Of a stretch of DNA of 64,000 nucleotides, positions 40,066-63,609 are shown piece by piece. The first letter of the stretch is position 1; every line of letters starts with the position of its first letter. The translations under genes were made by a program, and so were the position numbers. Origin of the DNA: a candidate division BRC1 bacterium HGW-BRC1-1 (GTDB taxonomy: Bacteria; Sumerlaeota; Sumerlaeia; Sumerlaeales; Sumerlaeaceae); the NCBI GenBank assembly GCA_002842095.1, contig PHCB01000007.1:186001-250000 (forward strand), given 5' to 3'. The notes below the pieces were generated by a model. It was not told the origin of the DNA and did no database searches. It saw only the letters and a program-made list of their open reading frames with translations.

Positions 40066-41142
40066 TTAAACGAACAGCTTTCTCTGCAACCACAACGACA
40101 CGCTTACCAGTCCGATCAGTACCGGCACTTCGACGAGGGGCCCGATTACGGCTGCGAAGGCGGCTCCCGAGCCAATGCCGAAGACGGCGATGGCGACGGC
40201 TATTGCCAGTTCAAAGTTGTTGCTGGCGGCGGTGAAGGAGAGCGTTGCGCTCTTCGAGTAGTCCGCGCCCATCTTCCAGGCGATCAGGAAACTGACGAGG
40301 AACATCGCGACGAAGTAGATCAGCAGCGGGATGGCGATCCGCACGACGTCCAGCGGAAGTTCCACGATGTTGTGCCCCTGGAAGCTGAACATGACGACGA
40401 TGGTGAAGAGCAGGGCGATGAGCGTAAGCGGGCTGATCCGCGGGACAAATTTGGTTTCGTACCAGGTCTTGCCTTTTGCCCTCAGCAAAAGAAACCGCGT
40501 TGCCATGCCGCCAAAGAACGGGATGCCGAGGTAGATGAGGACGCTTTTCGCGATCTCCCAGATAGTGACGTTGACGATGGCTCCCTCGAGTCCAAGCAGC
40601 GGGGGCAGCCAGGTAATGAAGAACCAGGCGTAGACGCTGAAGAACAGCACCTGAAACACGGAGTTGAACGCGACGAGTCCGGCACAGTATTCGGTGTCGC
40701 CCTTCGCGAGGTCGTTCCATACGATCACCATGGCAATGCACCGCGCCAGGCCGATCATGATCAGCCCCACCATGTATTCCGGGTAATCGCGCAGAAAGAT
40801 CACGGCGAGCGCGAACATGAGCACCGGGCCGATCACCCAGTTTTGCACGAGCGAAAGCCCGAGCACCTTCCAGTCGCGGAAGGCTTTGCCCAGTTCCTCG
40901 TACTTCACCTTTGCCAGCGGCGGGTACATCATCACGATCAGGCCGATGGCGATGGGCAGGTTTGTCGTGCCGACGCTGAAGGACTCGATGAAGCCCTGAA
41001 CGCCCGGGATGAAGTATCCGATGGCGACGCCGATGGCCATCGCTGTGAAGATCCAGATCGTCAGAAAACGATCGAGGAACGACAGGCGACCCCTGGTTAC
41101 GGTGGGGCAGCCGAGGTCGCCGGGGGCGTTAACTTCGGACAT
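40066..41142 (-). CDS. acr3: ACR3-type arsenite efflux permease
   Basis: Exports arsenite across the inner membrane. The 358-residue protein has about ten helices and clear ACR3 elements: [36 protein letters not shown], the motif with the essential Cys ([18 protein letters not shown]), [15 protein letters not shown] and a second conserved [17 protein letters not shown]. It is the last gene of an ars operon, seven bases after arsM. The repeat copy R5 touches its stop. Confidence 0.94.
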
Positions 41143-41148
41143 TACAGA

Positions 41149-42018
41149 TCAGACCTTTCGTGCTGAGACGTTCAGGCTTGTCACGTAGTCGGAGATTTTC
41201 GCGCCGCCGGGCAGGGCGGCGGCGATCTTGGCGTACAGCGGATCGTTCCACGAGGTCATGGCGTCGACGTAGTCGCCTTTTCGTTCAAGGACGATTTCCG
41301 TCAGCCCGGCTTCTTTCGCCATGCGTTCTGTTTCCGAGATCAGGACGGCCCCGGCGACGCAGCCGACGAGGGCTTCGACCATGGACGAGATCTCTTCGGG
41401 AAGCGGTTGCACGAGTGCAAGGTCACTGACGGCGACACGTCCGCCCGGCTTCAGTACGCGGGCGATCTCGCGCCACACCTGGTCCTTGTCGGGCGACAGA
41501 TTGATCACGCAGTTGCTGATGATGACGTCCGCGCTGTTGTCGGGCAGGGGAAGGTGCTCGATTTCGCCGAGACGGAATTCGACATTGTCGATGCCGGTGC
41601 GTTCGCGGTAGGTGGCGGCGTTGCGGCGGGCCTTGCTCAGCATTTCGGGGGTCATGTCGACACCGATGGCGCGACCCGTGGGACCAACCCTTCCACCCGC
41701 GATGAAGACGTCGAAGCCTCCGCCGGAGCCGAGATCGACGACGACTTCGCCTTCAGTGAGGCCCGCCAAAGCTGTGGGGTTTCCGCAGGAGAGGCCCATG
41801 TTTGCGCCGTCGGGCAGCGACGCGAGGTCCTGGGAGGCGTAACCGATTGCAGAAGCAAGTGCAGTGGCATCGTCGGCGGAGTCGGCCCCGCAGCATGATG
41901 TCCCCGAGCAGCAACCGGAGTCATTGACCTGGGGCTTCGCGACGGCGATGGAGGCGTATCCGGCACGAACCTTCTCGCGCACTTCCTGATTCTTGTTTTG
42001 TTCGTCGTTTCGTGACAT
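41149..42018 (-). CDS. arsM: Arsenite S-adenosylmethionine methyltransferase
   Basis: Methylates arsenite to volatile or less harmful methylarsenicals. The 289-residue protein has a Cys-rich N-terminal segment ([14 protein letters not shown]), [25 protein letters not shown]-binding [28 protein letters not shown], and the [15 protein letters not shown] motif with a key Cys. A further Cys lies in [12 protein letters not shown] 42018 is chosen: GAGGAG is ten bases upstream, and the TTG at 42036 would overlap this site. Confidence 0.93.
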
Positions 42019-42049
42019 AATGAAGTGACTCCTCAAAAAAGAGATATTG

Positions 42050-42481
42050 TTACAGGGTTTCTATCCATGTGCGAATCTCGTCGCGCACCCGGCGGTAGTG
42101 GCTGAGCGCTTCCTCCTCGGTCTTGGCATTCTTTGCTAGCTTCGGCGGATCGTCAAATCCGTGATGGACGATCTTCGTCTTGCCGGGAAAGACCGGGCAG
42201 TTATCGTCGGCATGACCACAGACGGTATAAACGATATCGAAGGAGACGCCTGCATCGAGGAGAGACCGGAGCGTTTTCGACTGTTGTGTCGTGATATCGA
42301 CGCCGTCCTCGGCCATCACTTTGATGGCGCTCGGGTTCTGCCCGTGGGCCACGATCCCGGCGCTATAGGCATCGATAGTGTCGCCCTTCAACGTGCGAGC
42401 GTATCCTTCCGCGATCTGGCTGCGGCATGAGTTTCCGGTGCAGAGGAACAGCACCTTTGTCCGTTGGTTAGTCGCTGACAT
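42050..42481 (-). CDS. arsC: Thioredoxin-type arsenate reductase (low-MW phosphatase fold)
   Basis: Reduces arsenate to arsenite with thioredoxin. The 143-residue protein starts with the P-loop FLCTGNSCRSQIAEGYAR containing the nucleophilic Cys and the second family Cys pair in YTVCGHADDNCPVFPG. This is the ArsC type from the Staphylococcus pI258 lineage rather than the glutaredoxin type. The ATG 42481 has a strong GGAGGAG site. Its first 94 bp overlap the 3' end of arsR in another frame. Confidence 0.93.
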   Translation of the reverse strand: MSATNQRTKVLFLCTGNSCRSQIAEGYARTLKGDTIDAYSAGIVAHGQNPSAIKVMAEDGVDITTQQSKTLRSLLDAGVSFDIVYTVCGHADDNCPVFPGKTKIVHHGFDDPPKLAKNAKTEEEALSHYRRVRDEIRTWIETL

Positions 42482-42828
42482 AGCTCCTCCGGGGAGTAAG
42501 ATAGGATTTCTTTAAGTCGGGTGCGGTCTTGCTGGATCGCCTTCTTCTTTGCCGCCTGAGAAGTGATCCATGCCACCACCTGCACGGCGTCTTCAGGAAT
42601 TTCCGCCCCCTCTACCACAGAGTAGTATGCCCAGCGGCCTTCCTTGCGAACGGACAAGAGTCCTGCACTGGCGAGGATGCTGAGGTGTTTTGACGTGGAG
42701 GACGGCGCAAGGGAAAGAAGTTCCTGCAATTGGCAGACACAGAGTTCTCCACGCTCTGAAAGGGCGCAGAGGATACGGACGCGGTTTAGATCCGAGAGGG
42801 CTTTGGTGATGGCGAGGATGTTTCGCAT
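42388..42828 (-). CDS. arsR: Arsenic-responsive ArsR repressor
   Basis: First gene of the ars operon. The 146-residue winged-helix regulator shows ALSDLNRVRILCALSER, the arsenite-binding pair in ELCVCQLQELL, recognition helix APSSTSKHLSILASAGLL and wing VRKEGRWAYYSV. The C-terminal 31 residues, rich in Ser, Ala, Cys and Arg (RCCSSAPETHAAARSRK), overlap arsC and may be a non-conserved extension caused by loss of an earlier stop. GGAGG lies ten bases before ATG 42828. Confidence 0.92.
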   Translation of the reverse strand: MRNILAITKALSDLNRVRILCALSERGELCVCQLQELLSLAPSSTSKHLSILASAGLLSVRKEGRWAYYSVVEGAEIPEDAVQVVAWITSQAAKKKAIQQDRTRLKEILSYSPEELCQRLTNGQRCCSSAPETHAAARSRKDTLAR

Positions 42829-54122: not shown

Positions 54123-54794
54123 TCAACCGGCGTCGGGCAGAAGTCGGTCGAGAATGTCGATGGCTGCTTGTGGGTCCTCACCGTAATGGGCGTTAATTTC
54201 TGATGCGAAAGCGTGGCTGAGGGGTGCGCCGCCTACGAGCACCGGCACGTTAACCTCTGCATCGCGCAATTGTTTCACCACATCACGCATCGTTTCCATG
54301 GTCGTGGTCAGAAGCGCGGAAAGGCCGATGGCGTCGGGTTTATGTTCCAGGGCCGAAGCCACAAAATTTGCAGAGGGGACGTTGGCTCCGAGATCGACGA
54401 TTTTCCAGCCCACCCCTTCGAGAAGCATCTTCACCAGATTCTTTCCGATGTCGTGAATGTCGCCCTGCACCGTGCCGAGCAGTACCGTGCCGCGGGTTTT
54501 GATGTCACCGGCCTGCAGGTGTGGCATTACTTCTTCCACGCCCGCTTTCATGGCCTTGGCGGCTAACAGCAATTCCGGCACGAAGACGGTTCCCTCACTA
54601 AACTTTTTTCCCAACGCCCGAATGCCCGGGGTCAGGGCCTCGTTCAAAATGCGCAACGGATCCATCCCCTCGGCGATCAGTTCACGCACACATTCGCGCA
54701 CGCCCGGCTGGCCGATCAGGCCGCGGGGGTATTTGGATGCGGCATCGGTTTTGCCTTGTTCGACAAGCGAGGCTATTTGTTCGAGAGTGGCCAT
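54123..54794 (-). CDS. Corrinoid (B12-binding) methyltransferase protein, solitary
   Basis: 223-residue protein of the MtaC/MtbC/MttC-type corrinoid proteins. Residues 1-90 form the helical cap (EALTPGIRALGKKFSEGTVFVPELLLAAKAM) and residues 100-220 the Rossmann B12 domain with GTVQGDIHDIGKNLV, where His114 is the lower axial cobalt ligand. The middle LGANVPSANFV and LSALLTTTMETM are typical. No methyltransferase or corrinoid-activating gene is near. It carries methyl groups between a donor and a thiol or folate; partners are unknown. Confidence 0.92.
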   Translation of the reverse strand: MATLEQIASLVEQGKTDAASKYPRGLIGQPGVRECVRELIAEGMDPLRILNEALTPGIRALGKKFSEGTVFVPELLLAAKAMKAGVEEVMPHLQAGDIKTRGTVLLGTVQGDIHDIGKNLVKMLLEGVGWKIVDLGANVPSANFVASALEHKPDAIGLSALLTTTMETMRDVVKQLRDAEVNVPVLVGGAPLSHAFASEINAHYGEDPQAAIDILDRLLPDAG

Positions 54795-56994: not shown

Positions 56995-57046
56995 CAGCGT
57001 CGGTTTTCGTCCCCAAGCCGGGGCGGTGCCGACGCTGATTTTTTTT
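56995..57046 (+). terminator. Terminator or attenuator between acpP and fabF
   Basis: CAGCGTCGG (56995-57003) pairs with CCGACGCTG (57029-57037), and a T-run of eight follows. A second small hairpin (CCCC-AAG-CCGGGG) sits inside the loop. It would end part of the acpP transcripts and let only some proceed into fabF, giving higher ACP levels. Confidence 0.8.
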
Positions 57047-57064
57047 GAGAGAGAGCCTTTAATT

Positions 57065-58309
57065 ATGACGAAAAACAGAGTGGTGGTAACCGGCCTCGGA
57101 GCCCTTACGCCCATTGGTAACACAGTTCCGGAATTCTGGGATGGATTGGTCGCCGGCAAGACGGGCGCCGGTCTTATCACCCGGTTTGATACGGAAGCGT
57201 TCGATGTAAAGTTTGCGTGCGAGATCAAAGGTTTCAACGCTGAAGACCATTTCGAGAAGAAGGAAGTCCGCAAGATGGACTCCTTCGTGCGTTATGCCGT
57301 GGTGGCCGCACGCGAGGCTGTTGCGGATGCAGGTTTGAAGATCGATGAATCAAACTCGGACCGCATCGGTGTGGTAATAGGTGTAGGCATGGGTGGGGTT
57401 ACCACCATCGAGGAACAGATGGCCGTCCTTCTCACCAAGGGACCCAATCGGGTAACTCCTTTCCTTGTCCCCAAGATGATTCCGAACATGGCTGCGGGCC
57501 TGGTTTCCATTTACCTTGGTGCGCGGGGCCCCAACACCTGCATCACGACAGCCTGTGCCAGCAGCACCAACGCTGTGGGCGAGGCTTACCGCATGATCCA
57601 ACGCGGCGATGCCACTGCTATGATTTGCGGCGGTGCAGAAGCGACAATCACGCCGCTCTCAATCGCGGGCTTCAGTAACATTCAGGCCCTCAGCAAGCGT
57701 AACGATGAATACCTGAGTGCAAGTCGCCCGTTCGATGGGACTCGCGACGGATTTGTGATGGGCGAGGGTGCGGGCATTCTTATATTGGAGAGCCTTGAAA
57801 GCGCCATGGCACGCGGTGCGCGGATTTACGCTGAATTGGCAGGGTATGGTTTGTCCGGCGATGCCTTCCACATGACCGCTCCCGGCCCCAACGGCGAGGG
57901 TGGTGCGAGGGCCATGAAGATGGCTGTCGATAGTACGGGCATGGCGCTCACGGATGTGGACTATATCAACGCCCACGGAACCAGCACACCGCTCAATGAC
58001 AAACTGGAAACGCAGGGGATCAAAGCGCTGTTTGGCGACCATGCGCGGAAGCTCATGATCAGCTCGAACAAAAGCATGATCGGCCATCTCATCGGTGCGG
58101 CCGGTGGTGTGGAAGCCGTGGCGACTGTCAAAACGGTGAGCGAAGGGATAGTGCCTCCGACCATCAACTATCAGACCCCCGACCCCGAGTGCGATCTGGA
58201 CTACGTGCCGAACACCGCGCGCAAGGCCGAGGTCAATCTGGCTCTGAGCAACTCACTCGGCTTTGGCGGGCACAACGCGACCATCGCTGTTCGTAAATTC
58301 GAGAAGTAA
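57065..58309 (+). CDS. fabF: 3-oxoacyl-ACP synthase II
   Basis: Condensing enzyme of fatty acid elongation, 414 residues. The catalytic triad is Cys164 in TTACASSTNAVG, His in YINAHGTSTPLND near 304, and His in NKSMIGHLIGAAG near 341; LSNSLGFGGHNATI closes the domain. The start MTKNRVVVTGLG at ATG 57065 matches the family; an upstream in-frame ATG at 57026 lies inside the terminator. It works with AcpP. Confidence 0.95.
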   Translation: MTKNRVVVTGLGALTPIGNTVPEFWDGLVAGKTGAGLITRFDTEAFDVKFACEIKGFNAEDHFEKKEVRKMDSFVRYAVVAAREAVADAGLKIDESNSDRIGVVIGVGMGGVTTIEEQMAVLLTKGPNRVTPFLVPKMIPNMAAGLVSIYLGARGPNTCITTACASSTNAVGEAYRMIQRGDATAMICGGAEATITPLSIAGFSNIQALSKRNDEYLSASRPFDGTRDGFVMGEGAGILILESLESAMARGARIYAELAGYGLSGDAFHMTAPGPNGEGGARAMKMAVDSTGMALTDVDYINAHGTSTPLNDKLETQGIKALFGDHARKLMISSNKSMIGHLIGAAGGVEAVATVKTVSEGIVPPTINYQTPDPECDLDYVPNTARKAEVNLALSNSLGFGGHNATIAVRKFEK

Positions 58310-58371
58310 CAAATAGTTCGACGCCTGCGCTCTTTTGCAGCGGGTGAATTGCAAAGACGAAGATCATCATG

Positions 58372-58405
58372 CGCCGGACAGTCCTTCACTGTCCGGCGTG
58401 TTTTC
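58372..58405 (+). terminator. Intrinsic terminator after fabF
   Basis: Perfect 11-bp stem CGCCGGACAGT (58372-58382) and ACTGTCCGGCG (58388-58398) with loop CCTTC, then TG and TTTTCTTTT. It separates acpP-fabF from the operon that follows. Confidence 0.9.
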
Positions 58406-58519
58406 TTTTAGAGTCGGCATTAATGGTTGTGCCTCTCTAAAACTCCGTTTAGCTTAAAGAGGAACAACTACATTTCTGACTCGATTAGTCCCACGGGGCG
58501 ACAGAGGGAGGTTGCTTTT

Positions 58520-59788
58520 TTGCGGGTAACATATGGATCCGAGTGGTTGGAAGTTGGGGTTCCGGGCGAGGTGGTGGTGCTGTGCCCTCCGGAGACGAAA
58601 CCATCTTTGTCCCTGGCCGCGATTATCCAGTCCGCTTTGGATCAGCCCGTGGGGGGGCGATCACTTGCGGAATTAGCAATGCAGGCGGACTCGGCACTTA
58701 TTATGATCGCGTGCCGGACACGGCGTACCGGGAGCGAAGTGTTCATTCCCGAGATCGTGCGCGTCCTGAACGAAGGGGGGATCGCTGATGGCGCCATCAC
58801 GGTGTGTACCGCCACGGGGACTCACGATAATTTCCGAGCGGAGGATGCCGAACTTCTGGCCGGGTCCGACTGCGCGCGACGGTTAAACTTCACGGGGCAC
58901 GACTGCCGAACCCCGGAAATGCTCGCAGAGGTGGGTACCACGACGCGCGGGAATCGGGTGCGTCTGGCTCGCCGTTACCTTGATTCGCCTTTGCGCATCA
59001 CGACCGGACGGGTGACGTACCATTATTTCGCCGGATTTTCCGCCGGGCGTAAGGGAGTGCTGCCGGGGGTGGCGGCGCTGGATACCATCCTTACGAATCA
59101 CGCGCTGGCGGTGTCGAAAGAGGGGAGGCAGGTCCGCCTCAATCCCCATGCCTGCAATGGTAATCTCGCCACGAATCCCGTGCATCTGGATATGCTGGAA
59201 GCGGCTCGTATGGCACCTCCACATTTCACGCTGTGCACCGTTCTTAATACGAACGACGAACTTGTGTCGGCCTATGGCGGCGAGATGGAGGCGGCCCACG
59301 CAGCGGGAGTCGCGCAGGTTCGGGCGAGCGACCGCGTGGAAATCGAGGAGCCATTCGATTGGATGGTTGTTAGCTGTGGCGGAGCCCACTGCGACGTGAA
59401 CGTCATTCAAGCCATCAAAGCGTTGTTGAACAATTATCAAGCGGTGCGCCGGGGCGGGGCCATTATTTTCGTGGCTGAATGCCCCGAGGGATCACCCGAC
59501 TGGTTGCTGGAGGCTTGCGCCCTTCGGGGCGAGGGCGAACTGGAGGCGAAAATCCTGAAGGGTGAGGTGCGCCAAGCGCATAATCCCCTGTGGATTCGCG
59601 ACGCCCGCGAGCACGCCCATGTCATCATGGTTACGAAGTTGGCGCCCGCTGCGGTCAGCGCCTTGGGGTTTCATCACGCCTCAAGCATCTCTGAGGCTGT
59701 GCAAATGGCAGGGGTTCTAGCGGGGTCACCACGCCGCACCGCCGTTGTGCCTTATGGAAATATTACTGTAGTGGAATTAAAGGAGTAA
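58520..59788 (+). CDS. LarA-family (nickel-pincer lactate racemase-like) protein
   Basis: 422-residue homologue of LarA, which racemises or epimerises 2-hydroxy acids with a nickel-pincer nucleotide cofactor. In Lactobacillus LarA, the key residues are His108, His174, Lys184 (cofactor tether) and His200. Here, counting from TTG 58520, the equivalents are His102 (TATGTHDNF), His168 (VTYHYFAGFS), Lys178 (AGRKGVLPG) and His194 (LTNHALAV), all with the same offset of six. The TTG start is eight bases after GGGAGG and gives the family length. It is first in a four-gene operon. LarB, LarC and LarE are not in the window. The substrate need not be lactate. Confidence 0.88.
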   Translation: MRVTYGSEWLEVGVPGEVVVLCPPETKPSLSLAAIIQSALDQPVGGRSLAELAMQADSALIMIACRTRRTGSEVFIPEIVRVLNEGGIADGAITVCTATGTHDNFRAEDAELLAGSDCARRLNFTGHDCRTPEMLAEVGTTTRGNRVRLARRYLDSPLRITTGRVTYHYFAGFSAGRKGVLPGVAALDTILTNHALAVSKEGRQVRLNPHACNGNLATNPVHLDMLEAARMAPPHFTLCTVLNTNDELVSAYGGEMEAAHAAGVAQVRASDRVEIEEPFDWMVVSCGGAHCDVNVIQAIKALLNNYQAVRRGGAIIFVAECPEGSPDWLLEACALRGEGELEAKILKGEVRQAHNPLWIRDAREHAHVIMVTKLAPAAVSALGFHHASSISEAVQMAGVLAGSPRRTAVVPYGNITVVELKE

Positions 59789-59796
59789 TTTTTATC

Positions 59797-61293
59797 ATGC
59801 CTGATCAAAGTCGAATTACACTCAAATGCGTGAAGTGCGGGAAGGTCTACCCGTGGTCGTTCAGCGTCCAATGCGCCGACTGTAACAACGCGCTCATCGA
59901 TATAGACTACGATCTGTCGAAGGCTCGCATCGGCCGCGAGGGACCGATGATGGAGCGATATTTCGATTTCCTTCCGCTGACCCGGCGCGAATTTATGATC
60001 GATGGTGGCGAGGGGAACACGCCCTGTGTTCATTCCAGGGAGTTGGGAAAGGCTCTGGGGTTTTCGAACCTTTACTCGAAGATGGAAACAGCCAACCCCA
60101 CGCGAACCACCAAAGACCGGCAGGGCACGATGGCCGTGGCGGCCTTGCGTGATCTGGGCATTTCGCGGTTCATCACTTCTTCAACGGGCAATTCCTGCAC
60201 TTCTCTTGCGCGCATTGTGTCGCGCTTCCCGGACATGCACATGAGCATCTTCGTCGGGGATGAATTCTTGAAGCGGGTGAACTGGGTGGATGCTCCCAAC
60301 GTGGATGTCTACTGGTTGAAAAACGGCACGTTTGTGGAAGCGCACCAGGCGGCGCGTTGGTGGAGCAACAAAACCGGCGACAGCTCCGAGCGTGGATTCT
60401 TTTTCTTCGGCAAGCGCGAGGCATTGAAGATCGCTTACATGGAAGCGGTGGAGCAGGTGCCGAAACCCATCGAGTATTACGTGCAGGGGATCAGCAGCGC
60501 CATGGGAGTTTACTCCACCTGGAAGGCATCGTATCAGATGAAGGAGATCGGTCTGGTGGAACGGATCCCCGGGATGATCTGTGTGCAGGAAGAGACGTGC
60601 AATCCGATGGTGCGGGGCTGGGAACGGGGACAGGAGCAGATGTCGCCGGAAGATGTTATCCGTTATCCCCGCGGGTTGTCGAAGAGCACCCTGCGAGGCG
60701 ACCCCAGCATGGTGTTCACTTATGTGCGCCATGCGGTGGCGGATAGCGGAGGCACCATGTTGACGGCCTCGCAGGATGATATGCGCGAAATGAAGAAGCT
60801 GGCGATGGATACGGAAGGCATGGACATCTGCCACACGGCTGCCATGACGCTGGCCGGAATTCGCACGCTTCTCAAACAGGGGTGGCTCAAGCCCGACGCG
60901 GTTCTGTTGTTAAACATGACCGGCGCTGACCGCGTGGGTGCCGCCCATGCGATGCCCAAATTTGTGGTGGAGCGCGATGAGGTTGACGAATGGCGCGTTA
61001 CCCCCTTCGAGGGAGGAAGCGTGGAGGGCGCGCTGGATCGCGTGGAGCGTGTTCTTGTGGAATCCCAAAAGCTACCCGGCGATGTTGAATTGGACACCGA
61101 AACATGGTTGCTCGGAAAGGGTCTGGCACTTGATTCCGTCGCACTTCTCGAGTTTTCGCTGGCGCTGGAAAAGGAGTTTGAGTTCGAGGTGACCGAAGAA
61201 GAACTAAACTATGAGAATTTCCGTACGGTGGGATCCGTGGCTGATCTGTTCCGCTCGAAAATGGCAGACCACGCTTTGAAACGTAATGGGTGA
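59797..61293 (+). CDS. Threonine synthase-type PLP enzyme fused to an acyl carrier domain
   Basis: 498 residues in three parts. Residues 1-40 form a zinc ribbon (Cys11, Cys14, Cys26, Cys29). Residues about 70-415 are a fold-type II PLP domain of the threonine/cysteate synthase family: PTRTTKDRQ with Lys106 as PLP lysine, SSTGNSCTSLA as phosphate-binding loop, VQGISSAMGVYSTWKAS, and LLLNMTGADR near the end. Residues about 425-490 are an acyl carrier domain with GLALDSVALLEF, whose Ser447 would carry phosphopantetheine. The fusion suggests the substrate or product is tethered to the enzyme. It is eight bases after larA and overlaps the ligase gene by eight. Product unknown; a cysteate synthase-like reaction is one possibility. 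Confidence 0.88.
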   Translation: MPDQSRITLKCVKCGKVYPWSFSVQCADCNNALIDIDYDLSKARIGREGPMMERYFDFLPLTRREFMIDGGEGNTPCVHSRELGKALGFSNLYSKMETANPTRTTKDRQGTMAVAALRDLGISRFITSSTGNSCTSLARIVSRFPDMHMSIFVGDEFLKRVNWVDAPNVDVYWLKNGTFVEAHQAARWWSNKTGDSSERGFFFFGKREALKIAYMEAVEQVPKPIEYYVQGISSAMGVYSTWKASYQMKEIGLVERIPGMICVQEETCNPMVRGWERGQEQMSPEDVIRYPRGLSKSTLRGDPSMVFTYVRHAVADSGGTMLTASQDDMREMKKLAMDTEGMDICHTAAMTLAGIRTLLKQGWLKPDAVLLLNMTGADRVGAAHAMPKFVVERDEVDEWRVTPFEGGSVEGALDRVERVLVESQKLPGDVELDTETWLLGKGLALDSVALLEFSLALEKEFEFEVTEEELNYENFRTVGSVADLFRSKMADHALKRNG

Positions 61294-62704
61294 ACCATTG
61301 ATCACGGGTCATGGTATAAACAAAATTGTGATCTGGGAGCCGCAGCGTCAGTTTTCGAAAGCAGAGGTCCTGGCAGCCGTCGCCACGCGGCGCGTGGATT
61401 TTTCGAGCGCGGGACTGCTGCCGGGTGCACGCGTGTTGATTGTCTGCCACTCGCAGGCAGAAACAGTGTTTGATGCGTTGGCCTTGCGCGATTGTTCTGT
61501 CGTGCCTGTATCGTCCAGCCTGACGGTGGGGGAGAGGCAGGCACTGGCGCAGAGGTTCGGTCTGGAAGCCATCGTGGAACTCGGAAATGTAACCGCCACG
61601 GGTGAACCCGGGCCGGAGTCCGTTATAGCTGAGAATGCTGATAATTGCGAAACCCCGATGCTTGGTTTGCTTTCAAGTGGCAGTACTGGAAGCCCGAAAT
61701 TCGTATGGCGAAATGCGCAGCAGGTGCGGGCAGCGGGTTCTATTTTTCGGAAGTCCCTTGGGTTGACGGGCGATGATTGCATCATGGCTGTCATCCCGCT
61801 GGAGCATAGCTATGGTTATCAGAACCTGATGCTGGCGGCGCTGGGCGCGATTGAAGAGAGCGGCAACGATTCTTCCACTGATGATGAGTTGGTGCGGTTA
61901 GCGTTTCCCCGCACACAGCATCCGCGCTCCGTTGCGCGTTGCGCGGAGCCCTCGGGCACGACCATTTTCCCCGGAGCGCCCGCTTTCCTGGACATGATGA
62001 CACGCATGGTTGAGCCGGAAGGGTTGGCCAAATCCGTGCGCATTTGTTTGTCGGTGGGAACGGCCCTGTCGACGCGGATTCATCGCGATTTCAGCCAGCA
62101 CTTTGGCGTGCCGCTATGGCAAAGTTACGGCGCCAGCGAGGCGGGGCCTGTGTGTTTGAATCGCGACGGTGGCTCGTCCGGTGACCTCATGGATCTGGGC
62201 GCTGTGTGCGATGGAGTTGTGGTGCGAATCGTGGACAGGGATGGAACCGATCTGCCCGACGGTGAGGAGGGCGAACTCGTTATAGAATCTCCGGCGGTGG
62301 GGATGCGGTATGAGGGAAATCACGATGGCGCGTCTCGAATTTTGCCCGGCGTTTTTCACTCGGGTGATTTGGGGATTCGTGAAGGGGGCCGACTTCGTTT
62401 CTCCGGGCGGCGCAAACTGCTAATCTCCGTGGCTGGAAATAAGGTGGACCCTCTGGAGGTGGAGGAAGTCCTGCGCCTTCATCCCGACGTGGCGGACGTT
62501 GCGGTGGTGGCGGCCTCGGGCGAGGATGCTCGTGAGTGGGTAAAAGCGCTTGTGGTGTCACGCAAGCAACTGAGTGCATTAACGTTGATGGACTTTTGCG
62601 CGCAAAAACTCGCTGCATATAAAGTGCCGCGAGTGATTGAGTTTCGAAGTGAGCTGCCTCGAAATTCCATGGGGAAGTTACAGAGGGATAAACTGAAACC
62701 ATGA
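61286..62704 (+). CDS. AMP-forming acyl/aminoacyl ligase
   Basis: 472-residue ANL-superfamily enzyme. The ATP-binding loop is LLSSGSTGSPKFV near 130, the aromatic motif PLEHSYGYQNL, then QSYGASEAGPV, HSGDLGIREGGRLRFSGRRK and the catalytic Lys464 in RNSMGKLQRDKL. The N-terminal part is shorter than in standard acyl-CoA ligases. The overlap with the PLP-ACP gene suggests it loads that carrier domain, as DltA does for DltC or an A domain for its carrier. Substrate-binding residues cannot be read reliably by eye. Confidence 0.88.
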   Translation: MGEPLITGHGINKIVIWEPQRQFSKAEVLAAVATRRVDFSSAGLLPGARVLIVCHSQAETVFDALALRDCSVVPVSSSLTVGERQALAQRFGLEAIVELGNVTATGEPGPESVIAENADNCETPMLGLLSSGSTGSPKFVWRNAQQVRAAGSIFRKSLGLTGDDCIMAVIPLEHSYGYQNLMLAALGAIEESGNDSSTDDELVRLAFPRTQHPRSVARCAEPSGTTIFPGAPAFLDMMTRMVEPEGLAKSVRICLSVGTALSTRIHRDFSQHFGVPLWQSYGASEAGPVCLNRDGGSSGDLMDLGAVCDGVVVRIVDRDGTDLPDGEEGELVIESPAVGMRYEGNHDGASRILPGVFHSGDLGIREGGRLRFSGRRKLLISVAGNKVDPLEVEEVLRLHPDVADVAVVAASGEDAREWVKALVVSRKQLSALTLMDFCAQKLAAYKVPRVIEFRSELPRNSMGKLQRDKLKP

Positions 62705-63609
62705 AATTGAACCGGGTCCTGATATCTACTCCTGCATGGGCGAAGGTAATGCAGTGGCTTCCAGCGGGTATGTTGCCTTCACTTATTGGCGTCCAATCCC
62801 GACTGGCATTGTTGAGTATGGGACGGAGTCGTCGCAGGAAGCTGAGGGCGTTTTTCGAACAGGTTCGCCTACGCACAGGGACGCATAAACCTGCCAAGGA
62901 CTTATTGCTGGGGCATCTAAAGGCGGAAGGGTTAGGCCGCGCAGCCTTGGCCCGCGCTGTCCGTGCCCAGGGCACCGGCGACGATCCTCTGCTTCAGGTG
63001 GAGGGGATGGATCATGTGGCGTCATGTTTACTGCAAGGCAGGGGGTGCGTTCTGGGAGGATTGCATCTTGGCGCTGGTGCCCTGCCGGCGGCATATCTGG
63101 TTCGCCAGGGGATTCCAGTGGTCACGTTGCGGCGTCTCGAACTGAAGGACAAGTATGACCCTGATGAAGTGGAACCTCGTTTCTATGGAGCTGAACCACG
63201 GTGGATTTCAAACGATGAAAATCCCGCAGCACTCATGAAGGGCTGCCTCAAGGAGCTGTCAGCAGGCAAGATTGTTTCGTACCTTGTTGATGGTTCAATC
63301 GGCGAGCGGGGGGTGGTGGTCGATATTTTCAACACGCCGGTTTTCATGAGATCAGGAGCGCTGGACCTCGCGCGCCTGGCGAAGGTGCCCTTCTTTCCGG
63401 CCTTCGGATGTGTGGGCAAGGACAGGGTCACCATCAAATTTCATGAACCGATCAATCTTTCAGGTCCAGAAGACGTGAACGAAGCCATGGCCTTGGTCGG
63501 CAACCTTTACGAGGAATTCGTGCGAGAATATCCCACGAATTGTTCGCGTCGTCATGTTGATCAATACATCTTCGAAGGTCGCAAGGCCGCCATCCACGGC
63601 CCCCGATAA
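62701..63609 (+). CDS. LpxL/HtrB-like acyltransferase with a degenerate catalytic motif
   Basis: 302-residue protein of the lipid A biosynthesis acyltransferase-like family. The N-terminal helix (LPAGMLPSLIGVQSRLALL) anchors it to the membrane. The expected H-x4-D/E site falls at GLHLGAGAL: His122 is there but residue 127 is Ala where an acidic residue should be. The rest fits: VDGSIGERGVVVDIFNTPVFM, GALDLARLAKVPFFPAFG. It overlaps the ligase stop by four bases (ATGA). It may transfer a carrier-bound product to a lipid, or be inactive as an acyltransferase. No acidic residue in the near neighbourhood obviously replaces the missing one. Confidence 0.8.
   Translation: MKLNRVLISTPAWAKVMQWLPAGMLPSLIGVQSRLALLSMGRSRRRKLRAFFEQVRLRTGTHKPAKDLLLGHLKAEGLGRAALARAVRAQGTGDDPLLQVEGMDHVASCLLQGRGCVLGGLHLGAGALPAAYLVRQGIPVVTLRRLELKDKYDPDEVEPRFYGAEPRWISNDENPAALMKGCLKELSAGKIVSYLVDGSIGERGVVVDIFNTPVFMRSGALDLARLAKVPFFPAFGCVGKDRVTIKFHEPINLSGPEDVNEAMALVGNLYEEFVREYPTNCSRRHVDQYIFEGRKAAIHGPR

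Follow-up and report, generated by a model that had tools for sequence, protein, structure and literature searches.

A predicted PLP enzyme with its own acyl carrier domain, and the four-gene operon that holds it in Candidatus Sumerlaeaceae

The fused protein and its occurrence

Within the window, by which is meant the whole 64,000-nucleotide stretch of DNA that was analysed, an open reading frame of 498 amino acids with an ATG start (59797-61293, + strand) joins a PLP domain to a carrier domain. In five genera of Ca. Sumerlaeaceae four genes are kept together, in the order larA, PLP-ACP fusion, AMP-forming ligase and LpxL-like acyltransferase, and this operon suggests that the family has an envelope or lipid pathway not described before. 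We know of no fold-type II PLP enzyme that has a phosphopantetheine carrier in the same chain, and a search of the literature found no description of such a fusion or of the four-gene operon.

The PLP (PALP) domain (59797..60993, +) is recognised from Pfam (PF00291, E 2.3e-29, residues 69-375), from conservation among orthologues and from an AF2 model, and includes an N-terminal zinc-ribbon-like CxxC...CxxC segment (Cys11, 14, 26, 29). An earlier note on this DNA had seen an intact PLP site in Lys106, which lies in a TTKDR motif (codon 60112-60114, +), and in the loop SSTGNS; both are where it had placed them and, together with Ser447 of the carrier domain (LALDSVALLEF), are invariant in all five full-length orthologues, each of which also has the C-terminal domain. 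Both domains are under purifying selection (pN 0.24-0.30 and 0.33-0.38, against a near-saturated pS of 0.68-0.90). A loop of the SSTGNS type binds the free alpha-carboxylate in fold-type II PLP enzymes, which use free amino acids, and in the alignment it is retained across the whole clade to which this PLP domain belongs.

Is the C-terminal domain (60994..61293, +), picked out by Pfam, by an AF2 model and by a PDB match, a carrier in the usual sense? It matches PF00550 at 23.3 bits, the gathering cut-off being 20.8 (residues 443-484), and its Asp-Ser motif is invariant in the orthologues. Modelled in isolation (AF2, six sequences) it is predicted to form an ACP-type helix bundle with pLDDT 85 and with Ser447, the predicted phosphopantetheine site (codon 61135-61137, +), starting helix II; within the full-length prediction the region is poorly modelled. 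The closest solved structure in the PDB is an ACP, and the top NCBIfam matches, at sub-threshold level, are the AsbD and AmcB carriers. Judged by profile score, motif and predicted helix bundle, it is a phosphopantetheine carrier domain, and the carrier serine proposed in the earlier note appears genuine.

ACP-bearing orthologues, 55-63% identical, are present in six of the eight genomes of Ca. Sumerlaeaceae and in none of the 31 other genomes of the same class that were searched. The six span five genera, two of them sharing one genus, and in one of that pair (G007) the fusion gene is split across two contig ends. Recurrence in six genomes means that the fusion is neither chance nor an assembly error, and an assembly artefact as its source was ruled out on this ground. 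Five stretches of viral contigs matched a pattern, none of which encodes a relative, and on plasmids just ordinary threonine synthases were found among the matches listed, 25-29% identical over some 75% of the query.

The operon and what it may make

In the window an 8-base gap separates larA from the fusion gene, and the junctions that follow are overlaps of 8 and 4 bases. The flanks of the operon differ among genomes, except between two close ones, and no RNA element was found near it. Upstream, between acpP-fabF and the operon, is a terminator-like hairpin with a 14-bp stem and a T-rich tail (58369..58401, +), found by a consensus scan; such sites as a class are no commoner than in shuffled sequence, and this stem is the longest found. 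A link of the operon to acpP-fabF was considered and set aside, with the hairpin lying between them and the pair not recurring beside the operon in relatives. The listed GTG start of fabF (window 57026-58309) is probably too early, the FabF-like sequence starting at MTKNRVVVTG. Further off in the window there is, by eye, an arsenic-resistance-like group (40066-42828, -) of a transporter, an arsenite methyltransferase-like protein, a low-molecular-weight phosphatase-like protein and an ArsR-like regulator. A corrinoid protein with both B12-binding Pfam domains (54123-54794, -) adjoins a quinolinate-synthase-like gene, and no neighbouring methyltransferase was noticed.

The first gene, larA (58520..59788, +; PF09861 161.8 bits, PF21113 48.6 bits), encodes a homologue of the nickel-pincer 2-hydroxyacid racemases; its mechanical open reading frame begins at 58427 and its likely start is the TTG at 58520. 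Conserved residues match Arg75, both catalytic histidines, Lys184, the nickel-ligand His, Gln295 and Lys298 of LarA. Among them are those that bind the carboxylate, the two histidines of catalysis, the lysine bound to the cofactor and the histidine that ligates nickel, roles taken in part from PMC11851776. The protein scores above the cut-offs of both Pfam domains and below that of each equivalog model. One close LarA accompanies the fusion in all six genomes that have it, G003 having only a distant one and the 66%-complete G006 none; LarC, which serves the nickel cofactor, is encoded in every one of the eight family genomes. From its domains, its residues and the LarC encoded in the genome, the operon protein is, on sequence criteria, a nickel-pincer racemase. 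In that family gene neighbourhood is often uninformative as to substrate (PMC7583248).

The AMP-forming acyl ligase (61286..62704, +; PF00501 105.3 bits, PF13193 54.4 bits), which overlaps the end of the fusion gene by 8 bases, stop codon included, has the adenylation motifs. Where NRPS A domains have the Asp that binds the amino acid (Asp235), it has Ser175, as Ser stands there in all six of the ligases; by motif alignment with E. coli proteins the same position is Asp in EntF, Asn in EntE and Ile in FadD. The substrate class is read from this one pocket position, which speaks for a carboxylic acid that has no alpha-amino group. Loading of an amino acid, as in a strict AlmE or DltA analogy, was dropped after the pocket alignment.

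The last gene (62701..63609, +; PF03279 50.9 bits), with a 4-base overlap with that of the ligase, encodes an LpxL-like (LPLAT) acyltransferase in which the HX4D/E motif is lost (His122-LGAG-Ala here; in all six proteins the acidic residue is replaced by A, G or H), whereas canonical LpxL paralogues in the same genomes retain HX4E. As a third, syntenic LPLAT paralogue is likewise without the acid, the loss is weak evidence of a new acceptor, and as the catalytic acid is missing, the transfer activity of the operon protein is assumed. In G004 the third paralogue (L094, 8597-9622) has an in-frame TAA break; it is intact in most of the relatives looked at. LpxC is present in seven of the eight genomes, which shows the family to have LPS and envelopes of the lipid A type.

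Relatives of the PLP domain that have no carrier (35-40% identity) are present in a second bacterial lineage (G061, at L036, and G064) and in Streptomyces and its relatives. The gene order in G061 and G064 is larA, PLP gene, AsnB-like amidotransferase, MBOAT, standalone ACP, AMP ligase, DUF2889, AsnB-like and AMP ligase. The sole NCBIfam match of the MBOAT is DltB, at a sub-threshold 44 bits; the free ACP aligns with the fused carrier domain (E 1e-5, two-sequence comparison), and both have AmcB and AsbD among their best matches, below cut-off. Judged by gene content, this is the module of the Sumerlaeaceae operon, unfused. The Streptomyces members are without LarA and without a carrier domain. 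Members of the clade are near acid-activating or carrier genes, except in two named Streptomyces strains, and for the Streptomyces clusters that hold them no known product could be named.

Two clusters with a clade member are as follows. An actinobacterial one (L067, 8957-18922) has an A-PCP, a P450, two SDRs, a flavin halogenase, an AMP ligase and the clade PLP protein, and looks like an aminocoumarin-type beta-keto-amino-acid set to which a further PLP enzyme has been added. The other, from Streptomyces (L037, 7201-17518, and L038; names by eye), has a clade PLP protein, an enolase-superfamily gene, a two-part transketolase, an acetolactate-synthase-like TPP enzyme, a Gfo/Idh oxidoreductase and an MFS exporter; the PLP gene of L038 is split between two reading frames.

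What, then, might the operon make? The best explanation of the whole, which we put forward tentatively, is that the PLP domain supplies an amino acid in free form, that Ser447 carries an acid of another kind, and that the acyltransferase transfers this acid. As a member of the clade next to the cysteate synthases, the PLP domain would catalyse beta-replacement (or elimination) and turn an O-activated serine, e.g., O-phosphoserine, into a substituted amino acid that is released free. The ligase, to judge from its pocket, would load the Ser447 arm with a 2-hydroxy, aryl or fatty acid and not with an alpha-amino acid, and LarA may fix the configuration at C2 of a 2-hydroxy acid, which is perhaps the one loaded. 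Against this explanation count that, to our knowledge, no reaction joins LarA and the PLP domain, and that the Streptomyces members of the clade do without LarA and without a carrier domain. Next, the LpxL-like acyltransferase would take the acyl group off the carrier and hand it to one of two acceptors, the new amino acid from the PLP domain or a lipid A-like lipid, giving an acylated amino-acid lipid or a decoration of the envelope. The most likely task of the carrier is to ferry a non-amino acid from ligase to acyltransferase, since the ligase is without the Asp and the free-carboxylate loop is kept.

The same two features speak against the PLP substrate being bound to Ser447 as a thioester, which the earlier note had taken the fusion to imply. 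Action in cis of the PLP domain on an amino acid thioesterified to its own carrier, i.e., tethered beta-replacement, would suit the keeping of the fusion in all Sumerlaeaceae orthologues and the siting of relatives beside NRPS, PKS and A-PCP genes in Streptomyces-type clusters, but the loop for a free alpha-carboxylate is invariant across the clade, the closest sister genes have no fused carrier and the ligase of the operon is not of the amino-acid type. The implication is not supported, and we think such tethering unlikely. Might the carrier instead deliver the nucleophile, an acid or thiol bound to the arm attacking the aminoacrylate that a free O-activated serine gives rise to, by analogy with CysO and CysM? 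This would explain why the carrier is fused to the PLP enzyme and not to the ligase, and would fit both the kept loop and a ligase for non-amino acids. The free carrier of the unfused module, however, is encoded between acyltransferase and ligase and not next to the PLP gene, and we consider such delivery unlikely. Similarly improbable, in our estimate, is a self-contained acyl-amino-acid machine in which the protein's own arm would bring a 2-hydroxy or other acid, loaded by the ligase, up to either the aminoacrylate or the newly made amino acid. If true, it would mean a new class of ether- or amide-linked amino-acid lipids, with stereochemistry set by a nickel-pincer racemase.

Phylogenetic place of the PLP domain

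In a tree rooted with E. coli CysK/CysM/IlvA the PLP domain belongs to a clade of its own (99/99) within a group that also holds the cysteate synthases (100/98), and the threonine synthase clade excludes it (100/100 unrooted, 100/98 rooted). The clustering within threonine synthases that the earlier note had named as counting against its proposal is, in the phylogeny it had called for, absent. Members of the clade are the Sumerlaeaceae fusions, the carrier-free proteins of G061 and G064, and the proteins of Streptomyces-type clusters, the first two being sisters (99/97 unrooted, 96/96 rooted). That the clade as a whole is sister to the cysteate synthases, as it is in trees with and without the outgroup, is supported rather than settled, since no branch of the tree as displayed has the outgroup as one of its sides and the cysteate synthase side consists of two sequences on a long branch. 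That side is thin because, among 288 genomes searched, there was one cysteate synthase above cut-off.

Could the protein itself be a cysteate synthase that feeds sulfonolipid synthesis, as in Alistipes and Chryseobacterium? The cysteate synthase CapA2 (PDB 9k3c) is the top PDB match by sequence profile, by Foldseek and, with a Z of 41.6 across 388 residues of the AF2 model, by VIA-align, a lead that may come partly from the shared N-terminal region, and RR(E/D)G, FQAV(S/G)SGxG and LNITG are common to the PLP clade and the cysteate synthases. These, with the sister position, favour the idea, but the TIGR03844 score for cysteate synthase is 125.6 bits (126.3 by genome search), far under the cut-off of 324.9, the clade is separate, the PLP loop is TTKDR where cysteate synthases have CSFKET, and a cysteate fatty acyltransferase is absent from the operon. 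Of the relation to cysteate synthase suggested earlier, kinship stands and identity does not, and we rate a cysteate synthase as improbable. That the protein is a threonine synthase whose carrier domain is mere decoration is very improbable indeed: the fold is the same, and generic annotation would name the protein so, but the PLP domain lies outside the threonine synthase clade with full support, the motif NSVNP.RLEGQK, which binds substrate phosphate, is replaced, the model scores are well below their cut-offs (at best PRK08197, 137 bits against 303; TIGR00260, 56.7 against 167), and the same genome has better candidates (L002 and L004), both within threonine synthases in the tree.

Other long PLP proteins were met with. 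Two threonine synthases in other genomes of the class (L015, L020) are in open reading frames of 744 and 715 amino acids, with about 300 extra N-terminal residues, and a 616-amino-acid PLP protein of G061 (L050 / L071, 8240-10090), outside the clade of the fusion, has about 200 extra C-terminal residues.

Significance and comparison with known systems

Between threonine and cysteate synthases lies a clade without annotation, with members in two bacterial lineages as well as in Streptomyces-type clusters. For an uncultured phylum, the four-gene operon offers a short, testable route to a new envelope molecule, and it also opens a way to find what a nickel-pincer racemase does in biosynthesis.

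AlmE-AlmF-AlmG carry out lipid A glycylation in Vibrio (PMC3783018). Like them, the operon encodes together a ligase, a carrier and an LPLAT-family transferase, in an LPS-bearing cell; it differs in that its carrier is fused to a PLP enzyme, its ligase is without the amino-acid Asp, and larA and the PLP gene are extra. With DltA-DltC-DltB, of teichoic acid D-alanylation, it is G061 and G064 that compare, through an AMP ligase, a free ACP and a DltB-matching MBOAT, whereas the transferase of the window is an LPLAT and its ligase is not of the amino-acid type. In mycobacteria CysM is a PLP beta-replacement enzyme to which sulfur is delivered by the carrier CysO. The resemblance is that of a PLP beta-replacement enzyme working with a carrier protein, but CysO is a ubiquitin-like sulfur carrier, has no phosphopantetheine and is unfused. 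Threonine synthase (ThrC) shares the fold, the PLP lysine loop (T)KDR and, in some ThrC, a zinc-ribbon-like N-terminus; the fusion, in contrast, is outside its clade, under every threonine synthase model cut-off, and has another sequence in place of the substrate-phosphate motif. Finally, CapA2 of Alistipes finegoldii is the nearest in solved fold, in its probable sister clade and in shared motifs, while at 20% identity the fusion is set apart from it by the TTKDR loop, the kept CxxC cysteines, the fused carrier and the operon partners.
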